64,000 nt of DNA from Pythium myriotylum. Taxonomy: Eukaryota > Oomycota > Peronosporomycetes > Pythiales > Pythiaceae. The stretch is from the NCBI GenBank assembly GCA_023091665.1, contig JALJCQ010000014.1:496001-560000 (forward strand), written 5' to 3'. Each line of letters opens with the position of its first letter. Position 1 is the first letter of the stretch. Position numbers and translations under genes: made by a program. Under the pieces are notes generated by a model, which saw only the letters and a list, made by a program, of their open reading frames with translations, had not been told where the DNA came from and made no database searches. Positions 45,160 to 63,275 of this stretch are shown here, in pieces.

Positions 45160-46685
45160 GTTCGCTGACTCTCTACTGTCTGGTTGATCGCAGACTGTGG
45201 CGAGTTCACAGAGTCTCCCCTACGATAAACAAAACACCCACCCCTCAAATCGACGAATTGATGAAAGAAAGCGACTGTTGTGTGTGTGTTGAGGCTCAAC
45301 TGCTTCCTTGGCTTTGCACGCAAGTCACCCATCGGTTGTGGGCTGGGGTGGATGGGGTAGGAAACACTAGCAGCCGGCGCGCGAATATCAATCGCCTGCT
45401 CATCATAATACACTTGGTATTATAAATAATACCATGCCGATCCTGGCACAGACGGCGTGGGCAGCCAATACCCTTCTTTCAATATCGCATACCCTTGCAT
45501 TCTGCGATGCGAGACAACCAGCGACAAATCCCAGAGCCCAGCCCCATCGTCAGCAATTGCGACACACGAGACAGGCCGGGAGCTTGACTTGTACTGTCCA
45601 CAGCAGTGCAACCAGGTGGGCACGAGACAGGCCACTTACACTCTGTTGTCTACTGGATTCTAGGCCCAGTTTGTGGCGGATTTGTTCAACACGACTGGCT
45701 ATCCAGGTGCAACTTCAGTCGCCGACTGACGGACAGATCGTCTGACATGACGCGGTCACACTCTGGATATTTGTATATACAGGACCCGTCTGGGCTCTCG
45801 ACTCGCTTGCTCGCGCAGGAGGCCGTCTCCAAAACTGACGATGGACGAGACAGACAACGCCTTAGACCATCATGCTGTTCCGCCAGAACTGCAGGCGACT
45901 CTGGTGTCGTGGTCACGTGAGGATCGCCGTGTCGGTTCTGACGATGATGAAAGCGGGATCCATTCGTCTCCCATTCACAAGGTCTTCCAGTCGCCGCGAG
46001 ACTTGTGGGCACATGGAGAGCGGCTGGCGTTCTACCCTTTCTGCGTTCCCAAATGGAGTTTACGGTGTAAACGTGCGGCAACTCTGCTGCTTTCCAGCTA
46101 GCATTTGCTGTGTCTGGTGCTCACAATACTGATCGAATATGGCGAACACGTTACCGCTAATGAGAACAGGGAAACGCTGGTGAAAAGCAGCCAGCCCACG
46201 GAGATTGTTGGAACCTACACCTCTCAGATGTAAACTCCGCAACTTCCAGAGGCACTTCTGTTTTGTATCGATGATATGTCAGGAGACCGCAGCGGAGCAA
46301 TCCACAGTCTTGGCATGGGGTCGCGCTGCTTCATTTAACGGCAACAAAATCTGCGCAGTTCGACGTCTGCTCCATTCTTCTGTGCGTAGCTGATCCTTCT
46401 CCGAATTATAGGGGCTGATTCGGTCTGCGGGAAGTATCGAAGCGCTGATAGCGTCCTCGTTGCTTGGCAACTTTTCTCATACTCCGGTGAGCAAGACATG
46501 AAAATTGACAAAGAGATATTTCTGGCGTAAGTCCTGGACATGAAGATCTTTTTCTGCTCGCGGGGAATTTCCAGAAGTAAGTTCATGCTTCCTCAGTCCA
46601 AGAATAATTGCTAGAAAGTTATGACAGCAAAAGTTTTACCCAATCATATCCAGTATCCAATGGACCAATCAATTCCACAGAGTCA
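45160..46685. other. gene-poor region
   Basis: About 1.5 kb without a supportable gene. A minus-strand reading near 46130-46250 (KLRSLHLRGVGSNNLRGL) is faintly LRR-like and could be debris from the neighbouring kinases. It should include the promoter of kinase 2. Confidence 0.3.
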
Positions 46686-46773
46686 GACGGCAGCAGTCTG
46701 GCGGGTCAGTCGACGGGCACGTCGGACACACCACTTGATCGTGGTGACGTGGGTTCAATTCCCACTGCTGTCA
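46686..46773 (+). ncRNA. tRNA-like sequence (tRNA pseudogene or SINE head)
   Basis: 88 nt, the length of a Ser/Leu-type tRNA. GACGGCA at the 5' end pairs with TGCTGTC at the 3' end (7 bp, one G-T), followed by a discriminator A. The T arm is perfect (GTGGG, TTCAATT loop, CCCAC) and gives a Pol III B box; TGGCGGGTCAGT resembles an A box. A CACCAC/GTGGTG stem with a 6-nt loop sits where a long variable arm would be. I cannot form a proper D arm or anticodon stem, so it is probably not a working tRNA. Confidence 0.35.
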
Positions 46774-47912
46774 AAAGGCAAGTTAAAGGAGCAATGCTTC
46801 ATGTGGGTGCCGGGGTTCCCACACAGCAGCCGCGGATGCTGACGTCCCCCGCCTTTATGGACACGCGGGGGGCCCGCCGTGACGGAGCTTAGCTCGTCGG
46901 CCAAGGCCAGCGTGCGAAGTCTCCTCCTGAATGGCCCCATCACGCCGACGTCCAGCGGCTGCAACACGGACGTCGTGTTCGTTGGGAGAGGGACGACTTC
47001 CGTGCCGAGCTGGGACAGACCTTCCATGGACTCTGCCGACACGTGCGACTTGAAGTTGTCGACGTAGAGCGCGAGCGGGCCGCGCTCCTCGCTGTAGACG
47101 AAGTCCTCCCAGAGCGTGCCGATGAAGACGTCCTTCCAAACCGCACCGTCCATCCAACCATTTGTCTGGACGGCGTAGACAGCGCCCTCCGGATAGTCAA
47201 CGAACGACTCCTCGACACTGCCGCCTGGCTGGGCCCGAAAGATGATGATGAGCGGCATCAATTTGGTGCCGTCCGCCGCAATGGTTAGCAGCACAGTCGC
47301 TCGGTAGGATTGCTTCTTCCCCTTGATCTTGCTCGAGTCGCCTCGCGCGGCTATGATGAGGCCGGGGTTGTCGCTGTAGTAGACGGCCGTCTCGTCGGTG
47401 CTGAGTATAGCGCCCGCTGGATACGTGGCGTTCACGCCCGCTGCGACATTCTCCGTGAAGGCAACTTGCTCTTCGAGAAGGTTCTCAAGCGAGAGGATCG
47501 TCCGCGTTGGCTGGCGGAAGGAGAACCCGTTGCGGTAGATCAGTCGGCGCACGAGCCGATGCAGACTGTCCTCTCGCTTGAGAGCCAAGTACAGCGACGT
47601 CCAAGCAGTGTATTCCTCCTTGAAAAGCTGCACGACGTGAGCCGTCTTGAGCGGGTAGTCGTCGCGGCGCATGTCCTTGATCCACTGAACGATTTTGCCC
47701 TCATGCTGGAATAGCTGGGGGCGGCCCTGTCCTCCCAACGACACCTTGCTCTTCATCTTCGCGTTACAGGCGGCGATCAGCTTGCCTTCCATCTTTGCCC
47801 ACGCGTGGATGCTGCTGTGGCAGTGGACGTTGTACACCTCCGCCAGCCTCGTCGAGCTAGCCCCGGCCTTCCAAAGGCGCGCCATCTTGAGCTTGAACTC
47901 GTTCGTGTACAT
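46755..47912 (-). mobile_element. pogo/Tigger-like DDE transposase, 3' truncated
   Basis: ORF of about 385 residues from the ATG at 47912 (MYTNEFKLKMARLWKAGAS), with the frame open further upstream. An N-terminal helix-turn-helix typical of pogo/CENP-B DNA-binding regions is followed by a DDE_1 catalytic core: ILSTDETAVYY (first Asp), LALYVDNFKSH (second Asp) and the TSVLQPLDVGVMGPFRR block (third Asp). After RRLRTLALADELSS the sequence stops resembling the family, and the frame runs on through Pro/Gly-rich residues into the tRNA-like sequence, so the C-terminus is lost or replaced. Such enzymes cut and paste elements at TA sites. I found no terminal inverted repeat on the truncated side. Confidence 0.7.
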
Positions 47913-48028
47913 GCGTCGCCGAGTACCCGACCGCTTAGATTTCGTTGAGTTATTGTCGAATTTAAGATAAATGGCCAAATAGAATGCAAAAACTCGTTTT
48001 GTAGTTGCAAATAACAAAGGGGAAATTG

Positions 48029-48106
48029 CTAATCGGTACCCTAGAATGGTTAACCATTGCTAATCAGTACCCTTCAAAATTTGTAATTACAATTTGGTAC
48101 CTTAGA
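48029..48106. repeat. short degenerate repeats upstream of the transposase
   Basis: GCTAATCGGTACCCT, then GCTAATCAGTACCCT about 29 bp on, and TTTGGTACCTTAG further right. They may be subterminal transposase-binding sites of the left-behind element end. Confidence 0.4.
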
Positions 48107-48229
48107 CATTCTTGGCGGGTTTGATGGCGACACCCGGATCTAATAATGGGTACGTTGGGTAGGAAGAACTCCAACGACGTGTTGGTCGCACACACCATAA
48201 CACAGGAGACTCTATCAGCACCAGGGAAG

Positions 48230-48430
48230 TCTCCAGCGAAGAACTAGCTGAGGGAAAGGCGTTCGACTCCATGTATCTTCTCCGCGTGACCGTTAACAGA
48301 CACTTCGCTTCAATTGGGTGTGGGAACGTGAAGCTGAAGTTGAAGTTAATGACGATCGAGGCGACGAAGTCCAAGCTGATGAGGTGGAAGACGTCTCTTG
48401 CTCGATGTGGTCACTGGATCGCATAGTGGA
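48230..48430 (+). pseudogene. MULE-type transposase fragment
   Basis: The reading VNRHFASIGCGNVK on this strand is shared with the decayed MULE on the minus strand near 63.2 kb. At DNA level 48282-48333 matches the reverse complement of 63219-63270 at about 50 of 52 positions. It ends at a stop near 48426. Confidence 0.35.
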
Positions 48431-48433
48431 CCC

Positions 48434-49151
48434 AGAACGAATTCTATGACTCAGTAAGTGCGCAAAGAATGATCAGAGTGACTGACTTCACTGACGTACT
48501 GGTCTGCAAGATTTGAACCCCCATTGAGATTCAAAAACTTTCGTTAGCATCCGATAGTCTTGTGGCAGAGCGCGCAAGGCGCTGGGCCTTTCGAAATCAA
48601 CACAAGGGCCAAGGGCCTGCGAGCGAACCGTCGTTCACGAAACCTCCTTCCTGTCTGTGGATGAAAACGTAAGGACCGCGCCTTATCACAGCATCCACGT
48701 TTTTATTGGTCAATAATGGGAGTCATGTCCTTGGTAATATGGACCAACGCGACGCAGCACTTCCTTTTAAAGTTGGAGTCTATTGTGATACAACTGTGTG
48801 AACAACGATGGCTTTACATGCAAATGCAAGGGAATGGTCCTGGGCCTATTGAAGAGTGGAGGCCTGTCACTGGAAGAAGAAGTTGTGGAAGTCCGCGCCA
48901 CTCAGCGCGGTCGGACGGATGAAACGTGTGGAGGCTGCGCTTGGAGTCCATCGCAACGTTTGCCGCGTAGTCAGCCATCTTGTTGAACTCACGGAGATCA
49001 TGACGTCATCTAATTACGTGTAGACGGTCGGTAATGAGGCGAAAAGGGTTGTAAAGCGCACGGAGGCGCTCATTTTGAGGTTGGAGATACTGGGAAACTT
49101 GCCGAAGGATGAGTTGGCTGCCGCCGATGACCGCCGCCAGCGAAAGGAGTC
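48434..49151. other. rearranged DNA upstream of the gypsy ORF
   Basis: About 700 bp. Gag and protease would be expected before this pol ORF, but no zinc knuckle or protease motif is visible. A + frame around 49040-49150 (ILGNLPKDELAAADDRRQRK) may be the remains of the preceding gag-pol linker. A degenerate tRNA-like block lies at about 48500-48640. No LTR was recognised. Confidence 0.3.
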
Positions 49152-52100
49152 GTGTGTGACGTGGATGTCGGGGACGCGAAGCCGATCGCTCAAGCCGCGG
49201 GACGAGTGCCGCCGCACCTGCTGGGGAGATTGTATGAGTTACTGCGCGGCCTTCTCCGACAGGGGTTGATACGATATTCGAACTCACCGTGGGCATCACC
49301 GATAGTTATTGTGCTGAAGAAGAACGGGAAAGACATCCGCCTTTGCATCGACTATCGCCTTGTGAACGGTCTAACGAAGCTGATGGTATACGCGATGCCA
49401 CTGATAGATGATCTGCTCGACAACTTTGAAGGGATCATGTGGTTTTGCTCCTTGGATAATGCGAGCGGATTCTGGGCTGTACCTTTAACGGTCCGCGCGC
49501 GACTTGTGACTGCTTTTATCTGCCCGCTCGGACACTTCGAATGGACGAGGATGCCTCAAGGGTTGAAGAATGCTCCACAGATCTACCAGCGCATGATTGA
49601 TAACGCGCTGTGGAGCATGGTGAGACGACTCAGCAACCGTGATGTGAGATTCAAGGCTGTCGGGTGGACGGAGGACGAGTTAGATGATATGGAGGCCCAA
49701 CGAGAGAAAGAGCGCATCGACATTGACGTACCGCTGAAGCGAGATGTATTTCATCGAGGTGAGTCACAGGAGTCGGATGTGCTGCCGGTGATCAAGCGTC
49801 GATCATACATTGATGATATCACCTTTGGGGCAACGACGTGGTCGGAAATGAACGTGATGCTGCAGTGTCTGCTCGACGCATTTCAATACTGGGGAGTGAC
49901 CGTGAGTTTGCGGAAGAGTTCGTTTGGGAAGAAGTCAGTTGAGTTCCTCAGTCACGTGGTCTCGCGAGAAGGGTTGATGAGCGCCCCAAGAAACCTCGAG
50001 TCGATCAGGCAGATGCCGTTTCCGTCGACGCAGAAAGGGTTGCAACGATTCATCGGCAGCCTGATCTATTACCACAAGTTCATCAGCAACTTCGCGACTT
50101 ATGCGGCAGTTCTGTATGAAGTCACTGACCTAAGACTGAGAGATGGGAGCCAACTTGATCATGCAAAGAGAGCCGTCGAAGAACTGAAGATAAAGCTATG
50201 CGACGCGCCTCTTCTGCGCCATGTTGAACGCGGACGAGAGCTTGTTGTAGTGCTGTACACGAACAAGTGGGCTTTCGGAGCATCAGTTTGCCAAGAGCAC
50301 GACGGGATTCTACATCCAGTCCGATTTGTGAGTAAAGTTTTCAAAGATGCAGAGACTCGATATACGCCTGCAGAACAAGAAGTGTTAGCTCTGCTGAAGA
50401 CGCTCCACGTCGCGAGTCACTACTTGCTCGGCCAACCGATTGTAGTGTACGTGAGATATTCTAACATGAAATGGGTCTTCACGTCGAAGAGTTTGACCGG
50501 CCGTACCATCGAGTGGGCCGCCATGTTATCGCCATGGAACTTGACAATTATACGAAGCGATGAGACTCCCGCCGGCTTGATGGCAGTGTTGGCAGCATCG
50601 ATAACACCTGCAGAACAAATGGATGCAATACTCGAAGACATCGCGCCGATGAAGACCATTAAAGATGTACCGGTCATTCGACCCTTCCCTGATCTACGAA
50701 GAAATGCAGACGGATACGTGCTCACGTTCGATGGGGCAGTCAAGTTGAAGGATACCCGGTCTGGCACGTTTGGTATGATCCTATGGAAACTGCCTGAGTG
50801 GAAGGTGGTTGCCGCGGAATATGATGTGAAGGAAGGGCTTACCGTGAACGACAGTGAATATCACGGCCTGCTCGGCGCACTCGAACTGGCAACGACGCGG
50901 GGTATCAAGGAGGCGCTCGTGTGTGGCGACTCCCGCCTGGTGATCGGGCAGATAAACGGTGATCTTCGGTGCAATCAAGCGTCGCTACAAGTCTGGCTGA
51001 ATCGGGCGAAAGAGCAGCTCACCTTGTTCGACAGCGTGAGTTTCATTCATATCGCGCGTAAGTACAACCAGGCGGCAGACTTCCTCACCAGAGAGGCCAT
51101 GCGATCCCAGTCGAGAGGCTCAGTCACTGATGATGCGCGCTTGCACGACTTGGAGCTTTTGAACACTCTCCCGGAGCTGTTGTACCGCGTAGACGATGAA
51201 CACGTGTGCGAGGGAAAGCCGGAGGCGGAACCGGGGGCCACTATAATGGTAAGGCGAGTTGATCAGTCTGGCCACAAGGTCGAGCCAAATTCAGATCAAC
51301 TGATCAGTCTGGAGTCGACTACCACCCGTGCAGAGCCAAGTGAACGGTCTGGTGAAGAATCGCAGTCAGTGTTGGACGGGATGAGTGGATTCGCGCCAGT
51401 CAGAGTGGTGAACGGGCGCCAGGTGGCGGGATTGCATGACGGTCCAAGCTACGAAGTGTTTGTTGTCGGCACGAGAAAGCGGACGAGGTCGAAGAAGGAG
51501 AGCCACACGAAGAAGCAAAAAGAAGGGTCGAACGCAGCTGACATTGGGACTTTCGAGGATGATGGATCGAAGCCGGCCAGAGAATGGACACCATTGCATG
51601 TGAGTGGGGAGATGCTAAGTCAAGCTCAGGTGGAGAGGTTCCGACGAGTGGCGGCAGCACAACGCCGAGATGAATGGTGCAAGCAGGTAATCGCGTATCT
51701 CGAGGGCAATGAGGAGGAGTTCTCTTCGTCGACCGCGCTCAAGCGGGTAGCGCGGATCGCTGTCCTATATGTGCTCGACTCAGATGGGGTGCTGTACTAC
51801 TCCCCTCAAGGAGGGAAATCGGAGGCTTTGAAGATGCGATTGGTAGTGCCGGACATTCTGCAGAAAGATTTATTATGCGCCTATCATGAAGAACTCGGGG
51901 CTGGTGCGCACCAAGGTGTGGGGCGTGTGTTCGAGCGAATGCGCCGTCTATACTACTGGAGAGGCATGTATGCGGATGTAGAATGGTATGTTGCCTCGTG
52001 TGAAGACTGCGCCACCGCGAAGGGCAAGCCCCGATACAAAGGTCGGTCCAGTGGCAATATTGTCGCGACCAGACCATTTCAAGTGCTCGCTATGGATTTC

Positions 52101-53303
52101 GCGATTCCCCTCCCCAAGACGTACAACGGAAATGAAGCCATGCTCTGTTGCATTTGCCTCTTCTCAGGTTTTGTGATTCGCATTCCGATGGCCGACACGA
52201 CAGCGCAATCCGTTGCTGAGGCGTATTTGAGTGGGGTGTTCAAGCGATTTGGGGCCCAAGAAATGATTCGACACGACCGCGACCCGCGCTTCATGAGTTC
52301 TGTGTTCAAGCGATTCAACCGCATGATGAATCAGAAGCAGCGCCCGACACTAGCTTATCGACCGCAAGCGAATGGAAAACAGGAACGTTCTGTGCAGACT
52401 GTGGTGAGGGCGATCAAGTGCTATATTGCTGATGCAGAGCAGAAGGACTGGGATGAATATGTTCAGCAGCTTGAGTTGGCCCTCAACACGTCAGTGAGTC
52501 TACAGCACAAGCAGACTAGTTTCTATCTGGTGCATGGCTGGGATGCACGAACGCAACTGGAAGCAGCGATTCCCCCCAAGGATGGTACGCTCAAGGAACG
52601 AAATGCACTTGAATGGCGGCAGAAAATAGCAAAGCAGCATGAACAAGCTCAAGCGCACGCCGAATTTATTCAGCAGAAATTAATGGAAGAACGTGCGAGG
52701 AAGAACAACGAGCAGGCTGACGAGAATCTGCAGTCGACGGTGAGGACGGAGTATCAGCCAGGTGAGCTTGTGTGGCTGTATCACGTTTTGGTCAAGGAAG
52801 GACTCGTGAGGAAGCTATCGCACCTGTGGCATGGTCCATATCAGATAGAAGAGCGTGTCAGTGAGTCGGTGTACAAGCTAAAGTTCAATCGGAGCGAGCG
52901 TCAAGTCATGCCGATGATCCACATCTCCCGGCTCAAGCCATTCGTCTCAAGGATGCGGAGGCCACGTGAAAAGATTGAGAGCATTCAAGACCTCGAGTTA
53001 GACGAAGCTCTATTGCCTGAGGATTCGTGGTATGAAGAAGGTGTTGATGACGAATATGAGGTGGAGAAGGTTGTCGACTGCCGATATAAGAAGCGGACGA
53101 GGAACGGTAGACGAATGCGCGAGTACTTGATCAAATGGGTCGGCACGAGGAGCCTACATGGGAGCCGGAAGAGAATCTACACTGCAACGCTCTGCTGTAC
53201 GAGTTCGACGCAAGACGGGCATGGGATAATCGCAAGGAAGCTGCCCAAACTACTCATGAGGAAGAGATCGATGAGAGTGATTCGAGTGACGAGTAGAGAG
53301 TGA
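49152..53303 (+). CDS. Ty3/gypsy pol: RT, two RNase H domains, integrase, chromodomain
   Basis: 1,383 residues, lacking gag and protease. RT spans ~30-340 with active site YIDD near residue 218. RNase H 1 (~365-470) reads LYTNKWAFGASVCQ where families normally have Asp after Thr, so its first catalytic Asp is Asn. A second RNase H of the archaeal type (~520-650) keeps FDGAVK, SEYHGLLGALELA, CGDSRLV and NQAADFL. The integrase has an H2C2 zinc finger (~913-955) and a D,D,E core (MDFAIP, RHDRDPRF, QANGKQERS, ~981-1080). A chromodomain-like start (EYLIKWVG) is broken by a frameshift near 53145; another frame stays open to a stop at 53294. Dual RNase H gypsy elements are known from oomycetes (Archon/Chronos lineages) and plants. 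Probably defective. Confidence 0.88.
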   Translation: MCDVDVGDAKPIAQAAGRVPPHLLGRLYELLRGLLRQGLIRYSNSPWASPIVIVLKKNGKDIRLCIDYRLVNGLTKLMVYAMPLIDDLLDNFEGIMWFCSLDNASGFWAVPLTVRARLVTAFICPLGHFEWTRMPQGLKNAPQIYQRMIDNALWSMVRRLSNRDVRFKAVGWTEDELDDMEAQREKERIDIDVPLKRDVFHRGESQESDVLPVIKRRSYIDDITFGATTWSEMNVMLQCLLDAFQYWGVTVSLRKSSFGKKSVEFLSHVVSREGLMSAPRNLESIRQMPFPSTQKGLQRFIGSLIYYHKFISNFATYAAVLYEVTDLRLRDGSQLDHAKRAVEELKIKLCDAPLLRHVERGRELVVVLYTNKWAFGASVCQEHDGILHPVRFVSKVFKDAETRYTPAEQEVLALLKTLHVASHYLLGQPIVVYVRYSNMKWVFTSKSLTGRTIEWAAMLSPWNLTIIRSDETPAGLMAVLAASITPAEQMDAILEDIAPMKTIKDVPVIRPFPDLRRNADGYVLTFDGAVKLKDTRSGTFGMILWKLPEWKVVAAEYDVKEGLTVNDSEYHGLLGALELATTRGIKEALVCGDSRLVIGQINGDLRCNQASLQVWLNRAKEQLTLFDSVSFIHIARKYNQAADFLTREAMRSQSRGSVTDDARLHDLELLNTLPELLYRVDDEHVCEGKPEAEPGATIMVRRVDQSGHKVEPNSDQLISLESTTTRAEPSERSGEESQSVLDGMSGFAPVRVVNGRQVAGLHDGPSYEVFVVGTRKRTRSKKESHTKKQKEGSNAADIGTFEDDGSKPAREWTPLHVSGEMLSQAQVERFRRVAAAQRRDEWCKQVIAYLEGNEEEFSSSTALKRVARIAVLYVLDSDGVLYYSPQGGKSEALKMRLVVPDILQKDLLCAYHEELGAGAHQGVGRVFERMRRLYYWRGMYADVEWYVASCEDCATAKGKPRYKGRSSGNIVATRPFQVLAMDFAIPLPKTYNGNEAMLCCICLFSGFVIRIPMADTTAQSVAEAYLSGVFKRFGAQEMIRHDRDPRFMSSVFKRFNRMMNQKQRPTLAYRPQANGKQERSVQTVVRAIKCYIADAEQKDWDEYVQQLELALNTSVSLQHKQTSFYLVHGWDARTQLEAAIPPKDGTLKERNALEWRQKIAKQHEQAQAHAEFIQQKLMEERARKNNEQADENLQSTVRTEYQPGELVWLYHVLVKEGLVRKLSHLWHGPYQIEERVSESVYKLKFNRSERQVMPMIHISRLKPFVSRMRRPREKIESIQDLELDEALLPEDSWYEEGVDDEYEVEKVVDCRYKKRTRNGRRMREYLIKWVGTRSLHGSRKRIYTATLCCTSSTQDGHGIIARKLPKLLMRKRSMRVIRVTSRE
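51256..51352 (+). repeat. 16-bp motif cluster 1 (three sites inside pol)
   Basis: Sites aligned to GAAGTGATCAGTCTGG start at 51256, 51297 and 51337 (spacing 41 and 40 bp), in the linker between RNase H 2 and integrase. They are read in different frames, so peptide conservation does not explain them. Confidence 0.8.
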
Positions 53304-53309
53304 CCTGGT

Positions 53310-53367
53310 GAAGTGATCAGTCTGGTGTGAGAAGGTGCTCAGCGAAGGGACCAAGCGAACAGTCTGA
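53310..53367 (+). repeat. 16-bp motif pair 2
   Basis: A perfect site at 53310 and a variant (AACAG type, three mismatches) at 53352, 42 bp apart, beginning 7 bp after the pol stop. Confidence 0.8.
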
Positions 53368-53527
53368 TCGGAGCGAGGTCACAAGAATGAGGGAACGAGA
53401 CTGAAGGTGCGCGGCGAGGTGATGCGGAGCGCCGCGACTGAAGGAGAGACGTTGAGGAAGGGAAGACGGTGAGGAGGAGGAGAAGAATGAAGAGCTGAAT
53501 CGAAGTACAGCTCTATAGCGACCTGAC

Positions 53528-54158
53528 GCGGATCGAATACGTAGTAAGGTCAAGTTCTGGGGTCGAAAGGTGGATCGAACCCACTTTACGGCCCTGCGAT
53601 GGAATCCGGCGCCGGGGGCCCAAGTTGGCTGCGGAATGCTGAGGTGCGGACCCGAGTTGGTTGCACAAGAAATCGCGAAGTTGACATGTGATGAACAAGT
53701 TTCAAAGAGCTACGTTTTGTGGTGACCGCATTCTGCCGTGGGTATGCGTCGAATGCACCAAGATTGAATATTGTATTGTTGACATGGAAGCTACAAGCCT
53801 TAGGCGGTGCCAGTGCACTGGGTTGACTGAAAGGGGCTACGTCTTGACACGGAGACTGTCCGGCGAGACGACAATTGAGGTGATGTGGCGGGCGAGGTGG
53901 CGAGTGAAGCGCATGTTTGGAATCTGGCTGTCTGATCAACTACCGGACGAAGAACAGAAGCGAGCGCACGCACGTGTCAGCGAAAGTGGTGATCTGCTGT
54001 TGAGCCTGATCAGCGAAGCAGTATGGGAAGCGCGGACGTTGACCACCCCTGTCGTAGAAGCCTTAGAAGGAAATGAGAAAGTTAGGCGGACTCGGAGCGG
54101 ATCGAACCCGCCGAGAGAAACAAGCGAGTTGAGATGGCTTGACGCGGACCGAACCCGC
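53528..54158. repeat. second motif family, GCGGATCGAACCCGC
   Basis: Copies at 53528-53542 (degenerate), 53569-53583, 54097-54111 and 54144-54158, again as two pairs (41 and 47 bp apart). The reverse complement resembles a tRNA T arm or Pol III B box (GGTTCGATCC). Confidence 0.5.
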
Positions 54159-54161
54159 TAA
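53688..54161 (+). CDS. hypothetical protein in the element
   Basis: ORF of 157 residues (MMNKFQRATFCGDRILPW) with seven Cys in the first half or so (CVECTKIEYC, CQC) and a charged helical second half. No family is recognised. Its 3' part contains the second motif family in coding sequence. It may be a real accessory protein of the element or chance; codon bias cannot settle it here. Confidence 0.25.
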   Translation: MMNKFQRATFCGDRILPWVCVECTKIEYCIVDMEATSLRRCQCTGLTERGYVLTRRLSGETTIEVMWRARWRVKRMFGIWLSDQLPDEEQKRAHARVSESGDLLLSLISEAVWEARTLTTPVVEALEGNEKVRRTRSGSNPPRETSELRWLDADRTR

Positions 54162-54550
54162 GAAGCCGCGGCGTTGCCGAACTGAAGGGCTCGTTCGAGT
54201 AGATCAGTCTTGACACGCCGGTTGAGAAGGATGAGGTGACGCAGCAGAGAGAAGAAAGAGGAAGCGTGTGTGTATGTGAGAAGAAAATGATGAAAATGAG
54301 GTGACTGATGACAAGCGAGATGTGATCGACGAGGAAGCCTGTACGCCAGAGAGGAACGAAGCGGTATGGGTGCCAGAGAGGAAGAGCGCACCTTTGTAGT
54401 GAGGCGCGGCCTGCGTTGATGACGTGAAGATGACTGGGGACGACTCGAGTCCGTAGGGCGACGCGCGGTGACGACTGGTGCCGGCAGTAAGAGACCTGCC
54501 TGATTGATTGTTGGCGCGACTTGATTTTAAATACTGGCCCCAAGGAAGGT

Positions 54551-54618
54551 GAAGTGATCAGTCTGGCCAGGCTTGTTAGCGGTCGGTCTGGTCGGTTTTG
54601 GTGAAGTGATCAGTCTGG
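54551..54618 (+). repeat. 16-bp motif pair 3
   Basis: Two perfect GAAGTGATCAGTCTGG sites at 54551 and 54603, 52 bp apart. A half-site (CGGTCTGG) lies midway at 54584-54591. The pair ends 38 bp before an ATG at 54656. Confidence 0.85.
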
Positions 54619-54655
54619 TTACCGTGAGGGGAAGGATCAGTCGAAATCGGTGTCT

Positions 54656-55080
54656 ATGACGGTGAACGCAAGTGAAGGAGCAGAAACGGTCTGTGAACAT
54701 GGCTATTCGTCTTATCCGAATGATGACAGCGCCTATGAGTACGTGTCTGCTGCGGTCGACAACGGCTTGACAGAGCGCGGGCATGGAGGGTGAGAAAAAA
54801 GCGTTAGCAGCCGTCAACAAATCGAATTCTTCGCCGACGATAATTACCTTGGACGACGTTGAGGGACGGTGTGAACTTGGAGCAGCAAGCGGGAGTGATC
54901 ATGGAAGGAGATGGCAGCGCGGGTGGAGGCCGAGAACGAGCGGCGGGCTTGGCGCATCAAGGCGCGTCGGGGAACTCCATGACCGATCAAGAAATGATGA
55001 GAGGCCGGCCTTCCAATCATCCCAGCCAGAGGAACAAGTACGCACCGGAGGGTTTACGCGAACCTAACGGTCCCAGGTGA
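54656..55080 (+). pseudogene. broken small ORF upstream of the SANT gene
   Basis: Three overlapping frames in turn read like protein: 54656-54793 (MTVNASEGAETVCEHGYSSY), 54783 onward (ALAAVNKSNSSPTIITLDDV) and 54859-55080 (NLEQQAGVIMEGDGSAGG, ending NKYAPEGLREPNGPR). Two indels would explain this. It could be a decayed gag-like or accessory ORF. Family unknown. Confidence 0.35.
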
Positions 55081-55136
55081 AGTGATCAGTCTGGCGGACG
55101 AGGTGGAGGTCCCTAGAACGGAAGTGAACAGTCTGG
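55079..55136 (+). repeat. 16-bp motif pair 4
   Basis: A perfect ATCAG-type site at 55079 and a perfect AACAG-type site at 55121, 42 bp apart. Confidence 0.85.
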
Positions 55137-55243
55137 TTGGTGAAGACCCAGGCCCGACGTCTAAGAACGTATAAGAACGTGTAAGAAGAGGAGAGCTCAA
55201 TTGGAGCGTCAAAAAACTTCCACTGCGAGCGAGGAAATCGAGT

Positions 55244-55302
55244 GAGCTGAACAGTCTGGCGGAGATACCCTATCGAGGCCGGCGCGAAGTGATCAGGTCT
55301 GG
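55244..55302 (+). repeat. 16-bp motif pair 5, directly before the SANT ORF
   Basis: AACAG type at 55244 and ATCAG type (one extra G) at 55286, 42 bp apart. The pair ends 11 bp before the SANT ORF's ATG at 55314, a natural place for an operator. Confidence 0.8.
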
Positions 55303-55313
55303 CGGACGGAACA

Positions 55314-57686
55314 ATGGCAGCTGGCATGAAGCGCAAGCGCGGGACTGACAAGGGCCAGGTGGAGGGGGCAGACGAAGGGCGACAAGACGCAATCGAGACG
55401 CCGCCAGGAATTGAAGGAGAAGCTACGCGGCAAGGTACGCACCAAAAAACGCCACTGCCCTCGACTTCCGCTCGACACACGGCTCACGATGAAGGAGATA
55501 CTTCTGTCAACTCGTCAAGAAAGCTCGCTCGTGCCGGAAGCCAAGCTGAAGCCCCTGCTCGTTCGGCCTCGAAGAAGAGTGCTGGTTCACACTGGTCGGA
55601 AGGGCAGCTCAAGACGTTACGCGTCCTGTACGAGCTGAAGGACCGCAACAAGTGGACGTGGGACCGGTTCGCTGAGGAATTCAACAAGATCAACGAAGTT
55701 ACCGGACACCCATTGCGTGATGCTAATGCCTGCCGAGCTCGCTGCCAACGAGATCCAGAGTTGAGGAAGAATACAGAGCCCAAGCTCACCAAGTGGACGC
55801 CTGAGCAGGAAGCGTTTCTGACTGCAGAGAAGAGGGCGAAGACCTCGAATCGAGACATATATGCGAAGTATCTTGATAAGGTTCAGGCTCACGGGTGGAC
55901 ATCTCGAGAGTACAAGACAGTGATGACCAAGCTCTCCAGCATCTCAGAGCGAGATTCGAGTCGCAAGAGCAACCGTTCAAGCGACCAGGGGACGGCCACT
56001 GACCACCAAATGCTGACAATGGCGCGCCGAGTATGGCATCCCGACGAAGACGCCGTGTTGGTGAAGGCTCTGCACGCGCATAAGGACGAGGGCGCAGCTA
56101 TATGTCACGAAGCGATACAGAGCGAACTCCTTGCCCTCGGAGAACGAGACGGAGTACCCATTGGTGACCGCACCATTGTGGCCATCAATAAACGACTGAA
56201 CACCTTACGTGATGGGAGGCCCGAGGCGACGAAGCTGCCCAGGCGGTGGACGGACAAGGACGACCAACAGATTCGTCAGGCTATGAAGCAAGAGAAACGG
56301 AAGCGCGGACAAGCGATTAAAGAACTCTCGGCAGCGTTGGAAGTCTCCGAGTTTGCTGTGCGTCGTCGTTGGAAGGAGCTGAAAGTTATCGATGGGGAAG
56401 TCGGTGGCTCGACAGAAGAGAAGGAAGCCAGTCCAGGCCAAGGAATTCTCATCGAGCCGTTTGTGTGCGAATCCAACCAAGGTGGTGCCACTCAGCCGGG
56501 GAAGACCGTCGCCCACGCGGAGTACACGATGCCAAGCGCCGTATTGGCTGAGACGCTACTAGCCCTGCGATCTGACAGTGCGGAGGTCGAGAGCGTCGTC
56601 GAGAGCGGAGACGAGATCTCGTTCGAGGGCGTGAATGAAGAGTCAGATGATGACGCACCAACGAATGACACAGCCGGACCTGATGAAGAAGACGTCGACC
56701 TTGCCGTGGCACAAGCTCTTGGTGAGGTGACGGCCATCGTAGAATATTGCAGCCAGCAAGCAAGTGAAGGGTCGAAGCGAGACACGGACCAAGGGATGAG
56801 CGGCCAAGCAGAGAATCTGTCGACGGACTTGGAGCAAGAAGACGGTGTCAGAGCGACGGACGCGGGCGAGAGCCTTGAGGACAGCGCCAGTGTGATCGCG
56901 GGAACTACTGGAGAAACTCCAGCGCCCAGAGAGACTGAGACCCACGAACTGCAGGCTCCCGGAGGAAGCGTGAGCGAAGGTGCTACGGACGGAACACCTC
57001 CAACTCTAGTGCATGAAGGCGTGCCAGCAGATACAGGGGCCGACGTTCCGACTGCTCAAGCTTCGTCCAAGGCTGACGAAGTTTCGGACCACGCACCCGA
57101 AGTGATCAGCCTGGCTACCCCATTAGTGGACGGTGAAGACGAAGTGAACAGTCTGGAAGGTTTGCCAGAGGCCGCACAAGCTGGAGTGAACAGTCTGGCG
57201 GAGGTTGCGAAGGCAACTAACTTGGTCGACCTTTTAGTGGACCCTCCATCTGAAGTGATCAGTCTGGCCAAGGAACCAGTCGCCAGTCGAAGCGTAGTGA
57301 ACAGTCTGGTCCCTTCCGGGGGGCACGCTCCCTCCAGCTTGGAAGACCATGCCGCAGAGAGCAGCAAAGGCGGATCCCACGAGATCCAAGGGCCTCAAGA
57401 CCCACCACACGCTGCGCCGATGGTAGAGGAGGACGAAGTGGTGTGGCGAAATGCACACGATGGTGCACCACAATACATCACCGTCCGAGTAGCTCCAGAC
57501 CAATCAAGGAAAGTTCTCTCAGCCGACACATGCGATCGTTTGAAAGCGAGTGATCTCGCACCAGACTCCAAGTTGAGGACGTTTTACAAGGATAGTGAGC
57601 AGCGTGTGGAAAATATGATTGAAGGTGGCCTGGACAAGATGCGCCTTCCTGACGGTCCGGCACCCCCGTCGACAGGAGTTTGCTGA
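55314..57686 (+). CDS. multi-SANT/Myb-domain protein of the element
   Basis: 790 residues. A basic start (MAAGMKRKRG) may be a nuclear signal. Between ~90 and 360 there are three or four SANT/Myb-like units marked by spaced Trp: SHWSEGQLKTLRVLYELKD, KWTPEQEAFLTAEKRA, VWHPDEDAVLVKALHAH and RRWTDKDDQQIRQAMKQEKR. The C-terminal half is acidic and Ser/Gly/Pro-rich, low in order. Near residues 596-665 the DNA motif is translated five times in one frame as EVISL, EVNSL or a near variant. The stop overlaps the beginning of the next open frame. Myb/SANT modules bind DNA or histone tails; I infer that this one may bind the 16-bp motif clustered around it. No host homolog is recognised. Confidence 0.7.
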   Translation: MAAGMKRKRGTDKGQVEGADEGRQDAIETPPGIEGEATRQGTHQKTPLPSTSARHTAHDEGDTSVNSSRKLARAGSQAEAPARSASKKSAGSHWSEGQLKTLRVLYELKDRNKWTWDRFAEEFNKINEVTGHPLRDANACRARCQRDPELRKNTEPKLTKWTPEQEAFLTAEKRAKTSNRDIYAKYLDKVQAHGWTSREYKTVMTKLSSISERDSSRKSNRSSDQGTATDHQMLTMARRVWHPDEDAVLVKALHAHKDEGAAICHEAIQSELLALGERDGVPIGDRTIVAINKRLNTLRDGRPEATKLPRRWTDKDDQQIRQAMKQEKRKRGQAIKELSAALEVSEFAVRRRWKELKVIDGEVGGSTEEKEASPGQGILIEPFVCESNQGGATQPGKTVAHAEYTMPSAVLAETLLALRSDSAEVESVVESGDEISFEGVNEESDDDAPTNDTAGPDEEDVDLAVAQALGEVTAIVEYCSQQASEGSKRDTDQGMSGQAENLSTDLEQEDGVRATDAGESLEDSASVIAGTTGETPAPRETETHELQAPGGSVSEGATDGTPPTLVHEGVPADTGADVPTAQASSKADEVSDHAPEVISLATPLVDGEDEVNSLEGLPEAAQAGVNSLAEVAKATNLVDLLVDPPSEVISLAKEPVASRSVVNSLVPSGGHAPSSLEDHAAESSKGGSHEIQGPQDPPHAAPMVEEDEVVWRNAHDGAPQYITVRVAPDQSRKVLSADTCDRLKASDLAPDSKLRTFYKDSEQRVENMIEGGLDKMRLPDGPAPPSTGVC
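57099..57309 (+). repeat. 16-bp motif array 6 (five sites inside the SANT ORF)
   Basis: Sites start at 57099, 57141, 57183, 57252 and 57294; spacings are 42, 42, 69 and 42 bp. Types in order: ATC, AAC, AAC, ATC, AAC. All are read in the same frame. Confidence 0.9.
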
Positions 57687-57694
57687 GGGAATTG

Positions 57695-60055
57695 ATGCTG
57701 GCCGGAACAATCCTCTCGCGCGGCGAAGAATCGCGCGCAATATTCTTGAGGGAGATGTGGACAGATAAGTACGGAGAGTGTCGGGACAAAGACTGCTGCT
57801 TAGCGTACGATGTGAACCGCCCGCATTTCCAGTACGAAGGCGAGTGTAGACACTGGCGATATTTCAAGATGCGACGGGTCAACTTCGACTACTTCACGAG
57901 CGTGAAAGACTACCTGCTAGCGGGCGCGCTTGCGACGCATCTCGAGATGCTCTACGCCACTGAAGGCCCCGACTTGCCACCCATCAAGCGAGACGGGAAA
58001 TGTGTCCGGCTGAGGCTCTCAGGGGGATCGATGACTAATCAGATGTCAGAAGAGTGGCCTGGCGGTGGAAGCGAAGGTGACGAACAAGGGAGCGATGGTG
58101 CGAGATCGGTGACCCATCTTCAGCCGTTATTGTGCTCGATGACCACGTTATATCTCTCTCTAGATATGACTACAGATCAGCAGGTCTGCGAAGCGCAGCT
58201 CTCACCATGGGATTACGGGGCGGTGGTGGCGGGCGAGAGATATTTACACGAGCGTCAGGTATTGGGCCGCGGGGTGTTGATGAGATCTGGACCCCGGTGG
58301 TTTATAGTCACGAACGCGAGTATCACGTCAGCCCAACCAAGCAGACTCGATTTAATGTGGGTCCCGAGGACAAGTTTACTGAACTACGTGCGACGTTTCC
58401 TGGCGATAGACCAAGCGGCGTCGCGACCTGCGCCGCTCGTCACGGCGCTTGCCATGCGGGACATGCATCAGAAGGAACGCCCGCGACCTCAACAGACCCG
58501 AGCGAAGAAAGTGAGGATGTGGACGAAGTCGCTCTTCCTGAGACCAAGCCAAATGAGAGTGGTCGAGGAATTTGTTACGAAGACTGGCATCATGTTAGTG
58601 CGCGGCCCGTTTGGCTGCGGCAAGACGACGACACTGACGCGCGCGATATCCGTCCACCGTGAGGCGTACCCCAAGGAAGTGATTGCAGTCGTGTCTGAAA
58701 CGAACGCCGCGATTGATGAGGACCTCCGACGACTCCGGCAGAAGAACCTAGTGCCCGAAGACGAAATATTGAGGCTTGGGAAGTGTGATGCTCACATGCA
58801 GGAGTTTGCAGGGATCTACCTCGATGAACTCATGAAGAAAAGACGGGTGTTAATAGAACGGATATACCCTGACCGGCCCGACACGATGGCACCCGAAATG
58901 AAGAAGTACGAAGACCATTTGTTAGCTCGAGCGAAGGTCCTTGTTGCCACATTAGCGACGATGGGGAGTGCGAAATATCAGCATCTAGCGAATCACGTGG
59001 TGATCATCGACGAAGGCGCGCAGGTTGCGGAGGCCGCGGTGATCCAAGCTCTTCGCGAAGGTACGCACACGCTGCTACTAGCAGGGGACCCCAACCAGCT
59101 GCGGGGGTACTGCTCGCTGCCGACAAATTTCGCTGAGAGGTTCCCCGGCGATGAGAGACGGCACAAGCTCAATTGGTCGGTGTTCCACACGTTCGAGCAT
59201 TGCTATGCATCTTATGGCATGAAGTTCCCGGGGCTAACGACGGAGGACATTTTCCGGTGTGGACCAGATTTGGTGACACTATTGCAACCCTTTTACGACT
59301 ACCCTTTGCGCTCCGCTATCAGCAACACTCCAGGACATCTAGTTGGGATGCTGCTACCGCCTCTGCAGGATGACGCAAGTTGGTCTAGGGATGGAGTCGA
59401 GAACGTACCGCCCCTGCCTCGAGGACCGTCCGCAATATGGCTCGACTCGGGCAACGAAGGTTTTCACCCCGACGGGCGACGAAAATCTGCGAGCGAGGAG
59501 AAGTTTGTGAACGTGATCGAACAAGCGCTGGTGATGGAACTGATCATGCTGATCAAGGCGCAACTCAAACTGCAATCCAAGATGACGCACAGGGTGTGGC
59601 GCAAGAGTGTCCTAGTCATCTCCCCCTACGCGGAACAGGTCAAGAGACTAAAGGAAGACGCTCTACAATGGAAAAATCTCTGCGAGAATTTTCTAGACGT
59701 GGAAGTGAAGACTGTGGACTCGAGCCAGGGGTGCGAAGCTGACATTACGATCACCTCGATGGTGCGTCATGTGAAAATGGGATTCTTGAAGAATAACCCC
59801 TCGCGATTGCTGGTGTCCCTGAGTCGTGTCAAGGAGTACATGTTCGTTCTCGCGGATGACCAGACTCTCGCTCAAGATAGCACGTGGGCGAAGTTCCGCC
59901 AACAAGCGATCGACATGAGGATCACGTACGGGAGGTCGAGATGGACGCCAGAGGAAGCTGGCGCTGTGTTGAAAGACAAGGACCACATGAGGAAGCTGGG
60001 CAGCGCTAACGACTCGAGAGTCATTGGCGACGCCCAGGACGCAGTGTTGTTGTAA
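57695..60055 (+). CDS. Upf1-like superfamily 1 helicase of the element
   Basis: About 786 residues from the first ATG at 57695; the frame is open from about 57648, overlapping the end of the SANT ORF. SF1 motifs are in order: Walker A GPFGCGKTTT (~308), Walker B VVIIDEGAQ (~440), motif III LLLAGDPNQL (~468), motif V VDSSQGCEADITI (~678) and motif VI LLVSLSRVKEY (~712). The N-terminal part has a Cys/His-rich stretch (CRDKDCCLAYDVNRPHFQY) that may bind zinc. Upf1-type enzymes move 5' to 3' on RNA or DNA. Reinitiation after the SANT stop (8 bp from TGA to ATG) or a ribosomal frameshift at the ACCCCCG run (57662-57668) could express it. The ORF is intact. Its role in the element is unknown. Confidence 0.8.
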   Translation: MLAGTILSRGEESRAIFLREMWTDKYGECRDKDCCLAYDVNRPHFQYEGECRHWRYFKMRRVNFDYFTSVKDYLLAGALATHLEMLYATEGPDLPPIKRDGKCVRLRLSGGSMTNQMSEEWPGGGSEGDEQGSDGARSVTHLQPLLCSMTTLYLSLDMTTDQQVCEAQLSPWDYGAVVAGERYLHERQVLGRGVLMRSGPRWFIVTNASITSAQPSRLDLMWVPRTSLLNYVRRFLAIDQAASRPAPLVTALAMRDMHQKERPRPQQTRAKKVRMWTKSLFLRPSQMRVVEEFVTKTGIMLVRGPFGCGKTTTLTRAISVHREAYPKEVIAVVSETNAAIDEDLRRLRQKNLVPEDEILRLGKCDAHMQEFAGIYLDELMKKRRVLIERIYPDRPDTMAPEMKKYEDHLLARAKVLVATLATMGSAKYQHLANHVVIIDEGAQVAEAAVIQALREGTHTLLLAGDPNQLRGYCSLPTNFAERFPGDERRHKLNWSVFHTFEHCYASYGMKFPGLTTEDIFRCGPDLVTLLQPFYDYPLRSAISNTPGHLVGMLLPPLQDDASWSRDGVENVPPLPRGPSAIWLDSGNEGFHPDGRRKSASEEKFVNVIEQALVMELIMLIKAQLKLQSKMTHRVWRKSVLVISPYAEQVKRLKEDALQWKNLCENFLDVEVKTVDSSQGCEADITITSMVRHVKMGFLKNNPSRLLVSLSRVKEYMFVLADDQTLAQDSTWAKFRQQAIDMRITYGRSRWTPEEAGAVLKDKDHMRKLGSANDSRVIGDAQDAVLL

Positions 60056-60205
60056 AGAAGGGTGATCCAAGTGTGCTCGCTCTTCTTCGCGGTGCTGGAG
60101 CTTCGCAGGGGACGGCTGTGGTATAGCGCCCCGACTCCGCGGGCATGAGTTTCTGCGAGCATGAGGTGACCAGTCAGGTGGAGGGGTGCACGGCCAAGTC
60201 CCAAG

Positions 60206-60263
60206 TAAGTGGTCAGTCTGGCGTACCCTTGGTACCCAAATCAAGACGAAATGAACAGTCTGG
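60206..60263 (+). repeat. 16-bp motif pair 7
   Basis: A GGTCAG-type variant aligned at 60206 and an AACAG-type site at 60248, 42 bp apart, about 150 bp after the helicase stop. Confidence 0.75.
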
Positions 60264-60549
60264 CGCCCAAGTCAAGATCCCGTATTCCAGATTCGGCCGC
60301 GCAAGTTATCGTATTTCTCTTTATTTAGAAACCTCACATAAAAACAGTAGGAGTAGGAACCTTATATTTGACAGATTTCAGTAGGTAGGAACGGGTGCTT
60401 GCCACCCAATAACCCACGGAAAAGGGGCGATTCTCCGCCGCTAATTCCGTGGGAGTCAGTCCACAATTTTTCCTCCTTCTCGCAGAAGCCCCCTGATTCT
60501 TACCTTAACAGTAGCCCGTCAGTATCTCGAGGAAGTCACCAAAAGTTTC

Positions 60550-60617
60550 GAAGTGATCAGTCTGGTCGACCGGCCGCCTGTTTTGGGTACCGTCGCGATC
60601 CGAAGTGATCAGTCTGG
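60550..60617 (+). repeat. 16-bp motif pair 8
   Basis: Two perfect GAAGTGATCAGTCTGG sites at 60550 and 60602, 52 bp apart: the same arrangement as pair 3, of which it may be a counterpart at the other end of the SANT-helicase module. Confidence 0.85.
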
Positions 60618-61084
60618 CCGAGGGCCTGGTGGTTTTGCCTGTGTTTCCTGCCAAGTCCCCGTAGGAGTTCTCCAAGAGCTCCATCGTCTCCAAGCCGTTC
60701 CTTCTCGCTGCCTCTAGACTTGTGAGGGTCTAGTTGTAGTGTCGTGTCAGAGTTCCGGGTCTCCGCTTCAAAGAAGTTGTGATATCCGGGTCTGAAGCGA
60801 GTGTTCGAAGCACGCAAGATCCACCCTTTTCCTGAGAATATTGTTGCCGTCGGTGACTCAAGAGCGAGCCTACGTACGCCAGGTGCCCGTTTTTGATTCT
60901 GCCACACGACACTCTAATCTAATATCGCTCAACGTTTTGCTCCCATCTTGCGTCTCGTCCTTTCGTCCTTCCAATTAGCAAGTACTGAGCTCAACAGTTG
61001 GATTCCATGCGAAGGTTTCCAGACTCAATCTGCCGTGTGTTCCATGGACAATGCAGGCTTTCACGGCTTTCATAAAGGGTTCTT
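60618..61084. other. non-coding region after the last motif pair
   Basis: About 470 bp with no gene or recognised repeat. It may include the right end of the composite element. Confidence 0.3.
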
Positions 61085-61763
61085 GGTTTCATCAGGGGGT
61101 TAGGCTGACACTCGTAATCGATTCTGGTTCGAGTTTAGTCGTCGTCTTCGGGGATGATAGTCTCTGACAGTGGAAGTACCAAATCACGGACGAATCGATG
61201 ATAGTAGCCGTTTAGCCTGAGGAAGCACTGAAGATCTTTGAGGGTCTGAGGCTGGGACCGGTTTGCAGCGACTGCAGTCTTGTCCGGGTCAACTCGCACT
61301 CCAGAACTACCTAAGAGGTGACCAAGGAACCTGACTTCGGGTTGCGCAAAGTGACACTTGGTCGAGCGTGGAGTCCTTCGTCTTGTAAAACCTGGAACAC
61401 GTGATGGCGATGCTGCAGGTGCTCAGCTCGATCCTTAGATAATACACGAATGTCGTCGAGATAGACCGCCGCAAAGCACGACGGCTCTTTAGTCTCAAAG
61501 CCGTGACGAAAAAGGCGTGGCCACGTGCTTGGCATGCCCCCCACGCGCCATCCGTATCTCGGATTCAGCTCGGAAGGCCGTGTACGGATATGACGGAACG
61601 GCCATGCGCACCTGATGGTGTTGAAACGAGAGATAAATGATGGTGAATGTGTGTGCATCTCTCATTCACTCAAAACTCTCGTCGATGCGTGGGGTGGGGA
61701 TGTTTGGATGTCGGTGGCTGAGTTAATGTACCGATAATCAATATCCCACTGCACTGGCAATAA

Positions 61764-61778
61764 CCCCCCCCCCCCCCC
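61764..61778. repeat. 15-C homopolymer
   Basis: A run of 15 C inside the gypsy remnant, 165 bp from a run of 17 G at 61944-61960. Run lengths may be unreliable. Confidence 0.8.
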
Positions 61779-61943
61779 GAATCCACTGGAGTTTTGACGG
61801 CAACTCACCTGAGACTGGGTCATACTTGGGCACGGTAGAATTATTCGACACCCACGGCGACGAGCTCTTCCTAATCCACTGTTTCTTCAATAGGTTCTCC
61901 ACAAATGATCGCATCGCTTCTTTTTCGACTAGTAAATGTCGGC

Positions 61944-61960
61944 GGGGGGGGGGGGGGGGG
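61944..61960. repeat. 17-G homopolymer
   Basis: A run of 17 G; with the C run at 61764 it forms an inverted pair able to pair as a hairpin stem. Confidence 0.8.
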
Positions 61961-62379
61961 CATAAAAAATTTCTTTCCGCAGGCAATCGGCACACTCATG
62001 CACCAACAATTCGATATTGGAGTCAGGGTTTGCTGGTCCATCGAGTTCGACCAAATCAATGTGCAAACTCTTCATATAGGAAATCGATTGTCGGGGCAGT
62101 AATTTGCTCTCACTAGTTCAAATTTCTAACATCCTCATGATAGAGATAGGTGGTTGTCAGCTCGTCTTGTAGATCTCGATGCGTCTGTGAATATTCGTGG
62201 AACGCCGTTTTTCCTCATCACACGAACTAGGAAGTTCGACGCTCAATGTGAAATTATTATCGCCGTCGCTACCCTTCAGCTTCTAGCACTAGGATTCTGG
62301 TTTTGGTTGCCTCTGCTTTTTGAACTTCGATTTTGGGTTCGCCAAGATGCGGTCGTGTTTGATTGGTGCAAAATAACTG

Positions 62380-63275
62380 GACCTGGTGCAGAATCAATGG
62401 ACTTCTTTGGCTTACTCACCAACTTCGCATTTCCTTCTTTTTGTTTCTTTCTAAGCCGTGCATAGACTTTAGCATCACCTACCGCAGTACCTCTGTTCCC
62501 AAGACTATTGACACATGGGTACCGAAGTTCTTGTCACACCTTGCAGCTGCATTCTTGCTTTTCGAGGTTGACGACCCGAAATGTACCGTTCTTAAGTTGC
62601 AACTCAAAGAGGTTGCCGTTTCCCGGAATGACTAATCGCCCCCTTGCAGATGGCGGAATCTTCTTGAGCTCCGATTACAAAGCCTGTAATAAGAATGTCA
62701 AAGTTCCTAGTGACGACCGAAGCCACATACAACATCCCTTTAGCTTTCGTCTTCAGATGACACGCGTTGAGAGCAAGTACAGGGAGAGTATATTGGATGA
62801 CCGTGTCGAAGGCTCTGTGAACAACACAGGCGCGGCTGAAGTGGTTCTGTTCGTCACGTTCGAACCTGGTCGCCGTACCGCTGTTGCACGCCTTTAGACG
62901 ATCCAACCAGTCACTGATGCGCATATAGCTGTCCTTTCCGTGCAGCGTCGCAGCTTCAAGAACCGCTCTTCGGGCTCTCCATACCATGTGACCGGAGACG
63001 CAGTAGATGTCGCTTTTGCTCAGATGCAGATGCTCTGTTCTCGGTCAGCTCCATGTGTTTCTTTACGATCGGAAAGATGACAAACCATAGAGTGTTTGTC
63101 GATCAGCTTGGTGATGTACACCTCATTATCGTCCTTTTTCTTGTTCGCGAAGAGGAGGAACGGGCAGTCAACGTGTTCAGAGCAGAGAGCCTTCAGTCAC
63201 CGCTTGGAATTTATTGACTTCACGTTCCCACATCCAATTGAAGCGAAGTGTCTGTTAACGGCCACGCGGACGTCT
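62380..63275 (-). pseudogene. decayed MULE (Mutator-like) transposase
   Basis: In order on the minus strand: an N-terminal part (HVDCPFLLFANKKKDDNEVY), the MULE core (HFSRACVVHRAFDTVIQYTL, then PVLALNACHLKTKAKGMLYV) and a SWIM zinc finger (NLEQECSC-like, with an in-frame stop where Trp is expected). The core Asp of the usual VDACH pattern reads Asn here. Several stops and frame changes separate the parts, so it is inactive. A matching fragment of the N-terminal part occurs on the + strand at 48.3 kb. Confidence 0.7.

Follow-up and report, generated by a model that had tools for sequence, protein, structure and literature searches.

Family-specific words recur in whole-turn pairs in long terminal repeat retrotransposons of Pythium myriotylum and may be read by an element-encoded SANT-helicase

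Why should a retrotransposon carry the same short word about twenty times, always in one orientation and mostly in pairs, in coding and noncoding parts alike? The question is raised by a 64-kb stretch of Pythium myriotylum DNA (the window; C14:496001-560000 of the 58.7-Mb assembly on which all genome-wide counts are based). It contains a 5′-truncated, frame-broken copy of a 16-kb Chronos-like Ty3/Gypsy long terminal repeat (LTR) retrotransposon, here called family A, that encodes pol and a protein with a SANT/Myb-like and a helicase half (the SANT-helicase). A first-pass annotation of the window had suggested that a 16-bp motif in this element forms helically phased binding sites, perhaps for the SANT/Myb protein. 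Our answer, to which we give slightly better than even credence, is that the words would be family-specific, helically phased sites on double-stranded DNA, bound by the element's own SANT-helicase and marking its copies. The array resembles a private address label, and the element's own DNA-binding protein may find its own copies by the word.

An ungapped scan allowing up to three mismatches gave 21 matches in the window, all on the + strand, compared to a mean of 1.6 and a maximum of 5 in 100 shuffles. The roughly 20 mostly paired sites described before are thus present, and the spacings given for them were correct: 42 bp seven times, 52 bp twice, and 41, 40 and 69 bp once each. The match at 59702 belongs to no pair and probably arose by chance, 60163 is a weak additional site adjoining the first LTR pair, and the site at 55286 was missed by the scan because of one extra base within the motif. 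The motif itself is there, but the sharp constraint is limited to a word of about 12 bp, TGAWCAGTCTGG, and the leading GAAG is looser. The copy and its sites are arranged as follows (+ strand throughout).

49130..60911, +, 5′-truncated family A copy; limits are where homology to other copies starts and stops
49152..53303, +, pol open reading frame (ORF) with reverse transcriptase, RNase H, a second RNase H (RVT_3), integrase and a weak chromodomain (Pfam scan)
51256..51352, +, site triplet in pol (51256, 51297, 51337), spaced 41 and 40 bp, in two reading frames
53310..53367, +, site pair 53310/53352, 42 bp, directly 3′ of pol
54551..54618, +, site pair 54551/54603, 52 bp, between pol and the SANT ORF
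55079..55136, +, site pair 55079/55121, 42 bp (41 bp in copies C1 and C12a)
55244..55302, +, site pair 55244/55286, second site with the extra base, directly 5′ of the SANT start codon
55314..57686, +, putative SANT/Myb-like multi-repeat protein, first half of the SANT-helicase frame (Pfam Myb_DNA-bind_6, E 0.023, below cut-off)
57099..57309, +, five sites in the SANT ORF (57099, 57141, 57183, 57252, 57294), in one reading frame
57680..60055, +, superfamily 1 helicase half of the SANT-helicase protein (Pfam AAA_11, AAA_12)
60117..60911, +, 3′ LTR, 795 bp, TG...CA ends (comparison with other family A copies)
60206..60263, +, LTR pair 1, 60206/60248, 42 bp
60550..60617, +, LTR pair 2, 60550/60602, 52 bp; its family B homologue is a 42-bp pair

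Information content drops sharply beyond the motif edges (19 window sites), the flanks of different sites share little sequence, and no site falls in any of the 9 tandem-repeat rows of window positions 45000-64000. Twelve of the 20 sites originally listed lie outside the three + strand ORFs, and protein selection is therefore unable to explain the set. The further claim that sites inside ORFs fall in different frames is true of pol by itself and of pol compared with the SANT ORF, but not of the five sites of the SANT ORF.

Throughout the genome the exact core TGAWCAGTCTGG has 468 matches, compared to 10 for the reversed word. The full-length family A copy at C12:158108-174128 carries 27 sites with up to two mismatches, all in the same orientation, and its LTRs hold a 42-bp pair followed, after about 300 bp, by one of 52 bp. 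Exact cores 30-60 bp apart form 208 pairs, whereas the reversed word forms none. Among 100 listed of these 208, 73 are spaced 39-42 bp (42 bp, 53 pairs; 41 bp, 11; 40 bp, 4; 39 bp, 5), 26 are spaced 51-53 bp (52 bp, 24; 51 and 53 bp, one each) and a single one 32 bp. A spread through the genome without spacing preference, which the first-pass annotation had named as an argument against its own proposal, was not found; the spacing classes are tight. The word comes in an ATC and an AAC form, and the rule that ties form to spacing extends to other copies: among 211 distinct exact cores from the window plus a set of genome pieces, 42-bp pairs are ATC-AAC in 46 of 52 cases and 52-bp pairs ATC-ATC in 33 of 33, the copies being non-independent. 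At position 55079-55136, word type and spacing shift together: ATC-AAC at 42 bp in the window and C9 copies, ATC-ATC at 41 bp in C1 and C12a.

The cores are held constant while the copies diverge. Compared with three other copies, copy C1 differs at 2 of 276, 4 of 252 and 4 of 276 core bases (0.7-1.6%), but at 237 of 2581, 246 of 2250 and 311 of 2599 flank bases (9-12%). The cores thus differ 7-13 times less (p 5e-8 to 4e-10), as measured on 23 sites chosen in C1 with one 1-mismatch and three 4-mismatch sites of the L011 part omitted. Seen from the window copy, the contrast is smaller, with 12 of 304 core bases versus 199 of 1723 flank bases and 12 of 304 versus 192 of 1842; against further copies it is 9 of 272 versus 106 of 1584 and 11 of 304 versus 130 of 1852 (p 1.5e-5 to 0.03).

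New here are two families, B and C, that have related helicases and bear other words. A helicase query of the genome found relatives, C13:2480237 among them and several at 33-39% identity, and recovered the loci of both families, which were missing from the results of a SANT query at E 0.001. Family B is represented by L064 on C22 and L062 on C3. Its pol is 69% identical to that of family A over 783 aligned columns (window versus L064), the alignment stopping at the chromodomain, whereas identity is 24% in the SANT-like region (E 1e-11) and about 36% in the helicase; so the presumed reader has changed far more than pol.

Family B carries GTTARCACTCTGRC-like words at places homologous to the pol pair and the second LTR pair of family A. 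They were found by reading the homologous pol and SANT places and not by word counts; exact 11-mer counts in L062 and L064 gave no array, nor did word counts in L061 (SANT-like, 30%) and L065 (a degenerate helicase remnant). The pattern GTTARCACTCTGRC has 16 exact matches genome-wide versus 3 for the control, and all 11 pairs within 30-60 bp are spaced 42 bp (9 with LTR sequence, 2 with pol sequence; control 0). One LTR pair, shared by homology between A and B, measures 52 bp in the former and 42 bp in the latter, a difference of one helical turn, and the word is altered at both B sites, the second being changed further. The A and B words are related, since only 9 of 20,000 shuffles reach their match. 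Downstream of the family B SANT-helicase in L062, a 506-aa ORF (334-1854) is, by eye, a candidate Helitron-like sequence.

Family C is represented by L063 on C26, whose helicase shares 33-36% identity with that of family A. The family C word, TGACAGTGATC / GATCACTGTCA, occurs in 15 exact copies in 10 kb of L063, 8 on the + strand inside the SANT-helicase ORF and 7 on the - strand outside it. Genome-wide, TGACAGTGATCG has 92 exact matches versus 2 for the control. With up to one mismatch the family C word is absent from the window, L011, L012, L061, L062 and L064. Pairs of GATCACTGTCA within 30-60 bp are spaced 51 or 52 bp in 31 of 31 cases, with 0 in the reversed-word control. A weak gag match and a recurring site spacing of 532 bp suggest that family C is an LTR element; its putative LTR includes a site that forms a near-palindrome at L063 6503-6526, TGACAGTG and CACTGTCA flanking 8 bp. 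On a 22-kb ENA contig lies P0001 (995 aa), which shares 30% identity with the helicase across 93% of the query and is nearest to family C by eye.

Paired protein sites on double-stranded DNA are the best reading of these data, because the words stay constant amid divergence, lie in coding and noncoding parts and stand in whole-turn pairs. The element's own SANT-helicase is the favoured reader because three families have three words and because, between A and B, the presumed reader changed more than pol. The SANT-like repeats would read the family-specific word, and two protein units would occupy a site pair, presumably cooperatively, on one side of the helix at a distance of 4 or 5 turns. With sites across LTR, noncoding and coding parts, the protein could locate all copies of its own family and recruit the helicase to them, most likely keeping them open and transcribed despite host silencing. 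Since the sites span the whole element and extend beyond the promoter, marking or opening of whole copies is suggested, and we favour chromatin marking over transcription, complementary DNA or integration as the step under control. Word and reader would diverge jointly, so that each family serves itself. Of the helically phased binding sites proposed in the first-pass annotation, the family-wide array, its tight spacing and constraint, the phasing in two other families as well and the 52-to-42 bp shift in the LTR were borne out; that a protein binds there we infer.

Several observations weigh against this reading. The assignment of the presumed reader to Myb/SANT is weak: the Pfam match in family A has an E value of 0.023, below the cut-off, and the family B and C proteins have no such match at E 0.1. 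A PDB search with a profile built from hand-picked repeats gave MYB21 as best match at 0.0018, with unrelated proteins from 0.012 onward. A single-sequence structure model had a mean predicted local distance difference test score (pLDDT) of 50, too weak for a fold search, and a protein database search with the SANT ORF gave zero matches. A SANT/Myb binder, as proposed earlier, would fit the way the word changes with the protein between families; the name of the domain comes from weak matches. In the family C protein SANT-like repeats can be picked by eye, but it has no significant likeness to the SANT-like region of family A (E 0.28). Its word is not significantly similar to the A and B words either, as 6069 and 8412 of 20,000 shuffles reach the match. 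A skeleton common to all three words, apparent by eye, holds for A and B alone and was dropped for C after the shuffle test. Family C thus exemplifies a further family, one that has a word of its own in whole-turn pairs, and not a traceable step of the same word. The basis in family B is thin, with 16 exact sites and 11 pairs at two element positions, and peptide selection could contribute to the five sites sharing a frame in the SANT ORF. Motif columns agree at 0.980-0.993 in 38 LTR pieces versus 0.949 elsewhere, but two other 16-bp stretches of the LTR reach the same conservation, so LTR conservation alone is no proof. Phasing at a period of 10.5 bp has a p of about 1e-7 for 21 hand-picked element positions from A, B and C, each counted once, with the off-phase intervals of 69 and 78 bp in A and 61, 48 and 80 bp in C omitted. 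Family A copies are non-independent and many 42-bp pairs could have a common ancestry. Because of these omissions and the possibly shared ancestry, we place more weight on the comparison with families B and C than on the phase test.

The sites could instead be enhancer motifs borrowed from the host and read by a host Myb-type factor, the SANT-helicase serving another role. Sites are indeed plentiful in the LTRs and 5′ of the SANT ORF, the places expected to hold promoters, and Myb-like reading of such words is common. However, one host factor does not fit three words in one genome, and the sites are also found in gag, pol and the SANT ORF. Moreover, among the 100 listed, three cores sit in loci unlike the element (L016, L022 and L025; eight loci checked), consistent with the chance level given by the reversed word (10 in the whole genome). 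We regard a host factor as unlikely, if worth keeping in mind. A signal at the RNA level appears quite unlikely; in this reading the transcript would carry sites to which the helicase or Gag binds in the service of packaging, translation or stability, or which small RNAs match. Such a signal would agree with the sense orientation of all A sites (window and C12 copy) and of the B sites read in L062 and L064, and with the superfamily 1 helicase, a class that includes RNA helicases. Yet the exact sites of family C occur in both orientations, which fits DNA better than RNA, and a preference for whole-turn spacing has no plain meaning for single-stranded RNA.

A role in chromosome structure, whereby the array would tie the element to special chromatin, centromere-like or other, or guide new insertions towards copies already present, deserves mention because 16 of the 40 scored family A LTR matches lie inside a 208-kb stretch (C22:656042-863859). 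Family B words are found in and near this cluster, which is possibly centromere-like, and pol has a weak chromodomain match. In Phytophthora sojae, centromeres are enriched for one LTR element (PMC7082073), but that element is Copia-like and not Gypsy, and family A copies are present on many other contigs too; we consider this explanation improbable. Passive remnants of a duplicated longer unit, whose other bases decayed and whose likeness was kept by recent copying, are very improbable. Six 42-bp pairs have 26-bp spacers that resemble one another a little more than random sequence does (0.326 versus 0.259; p 0.0025, 2000 draws), a small remaining similarity. On the other hand, the cores differ far less than the flanks between diverged copies, the flanks of different sites have little in common, and a changed word at homologous family B sites is unexpected for a remnant. 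The decayed repeat that the first-pass annotation had set against its own proposal was thus not borne out.

Element-encoded proteins that bind a repeated short word in their own element are known: TnpA of maize En/Spm does so and counters silencing, but En/Spm is a DNA transposon with subterminal sites. The Drosophila gypsy insulator also places repeated binding sites inside an LTR retrotransposon, but in a single cluster that a host protein reads. VANDALs are Mutator-like DNA transposons, whereas the element here is an LTR retrotransposon. The Arabidopsis VANDAL/VANC system has a short family-specific word with many copies per element, one orientation and one-base variants (PMC5735166, PMC10398659), other words in related families and a presumed reader more variable than the mobility protein (PMC5735166). 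By the counts for A, B and C, a dense family-specific word that differs in related families is likewise found here. According to the same source (PMC5735166), VANC has DUF1985/DUF287, whereas the presumed reader here is SANT plus helicase, and VANDAL sites are mainly noncoding and often in tandem repeats, whereas here isolated words lie in coding and noncoding parts; whole-turn pair spacing is, on this comparison, a further difference. No Pfam match to DUF1985 or DUF287 was found in the A, B or C proteins. With proteins unrelated by Pfam, the VANC parallel is an analogy, and by this analogy the outcome would be anti-silencing.

Like the oomycete Chronos elements (PMC5348765), which combine a Gypsy-type and an archaeal/plant-type RNase H, family A has two RNase H matches ahead of the integrase; where Chronos pol ends in a chromodomain, family A shows a weak match to one. 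The element here differs in adding a 1586-aa SANT-helicase frame and the motif array; 'helicase' and 'Myb' each occur 0 times in the main text of PMC5348765. In pol of family A, RT_RNaseH and RVT_3 match at separate places (Pfam), and RVT_3 would be the archaeal-type RNase H. No LTR retrotransposon with its own word array and a SANT-helicase was found in the published literature, most subscription journals, preprints and repeat databases lying outside the search. It is tempting to speculate, although we put this at rather less than even, that self-addressing LTR retrotransposons exist in oomycetes. Each family would carry its own word in whole-turn pairs, coding sequence included, and a matching SANT-helicase that selects its own copies. 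Word and reader would change jointly, leaving sister families in one nucleus mutually blind. If true, element-encoded self-recognition, known from plant DNA transposons, arose in retrotransposons too, and the retrotransposon version adds a spacing rule and places sites within coding sequence. With a separate word for each of three families in a single genome, the co-divergence of protein and site would be directly testable. The silencing marks studied in this lineage appear to be N6-methyladenine (6mA), trimethylated lysine 27 of histone H3 (H3K27me3) and small RNAs, and the words would be clean markers for how such elements withstand silencing.

Family A belongs to the Ty3/Gypsy LTR class by its TG...CA LTRs, short target duplication and order of reverse transcriptase, RNase H and integrase. 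The full-length C12 copy is 16.0 kb long with two identical LTRs and TG...CA ends; LTR alignments are identical over 796-801 bp in three copies, and 4-bp flanking repeats were read by eye at 3 of 3 copies inspected. In a 500-bp LTR piece, three of nine LTR pairs are identical and the remaining six 95.8-99.6% alike, the C22, C9 and C17 pairings each being presumed to be one insertion. Because LTR pairs are identical or nearly so, at least some copies moved recently. The window copy itself looks dead. About 2 kb without a long + strand ORF separates its pol from the SANT-like protein. The SANT-like and helicase parts form one continuous 1586-aa frame with no stop in four other copies, but the frame is broken near 57680 in the window. 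The end of the window pol is out of frame relative to the family B pol (L064), and the chromodomain match (PF00385, 20.2 bits versus a cut-off of 25.1) lies at the point where the pol frame breaks.

Around this copy, a 53-nt inverted repeat of 96% complementarity (48281-48333 and 63218-63270) encloses the element, its arms being 14.9 kb apart. Upstream of the truncation point an ORF with a DDE_1 match (46755-48017) is present, which we take to be of the pogo/Tigger type. One host protein encoded in the window has oomycete relatives, with the best in Pythium oligandrum (54% over 83%). Further away, three adjacent MATE-family transporter ORFs lie on the minus strand (30151-36529), and between 19933 and 27583 a 3173-aa ORF (18555-28076) contains a word that returns at 306-bp intervals, 26 times in all, as a long tandem repeat in what may be a gene.

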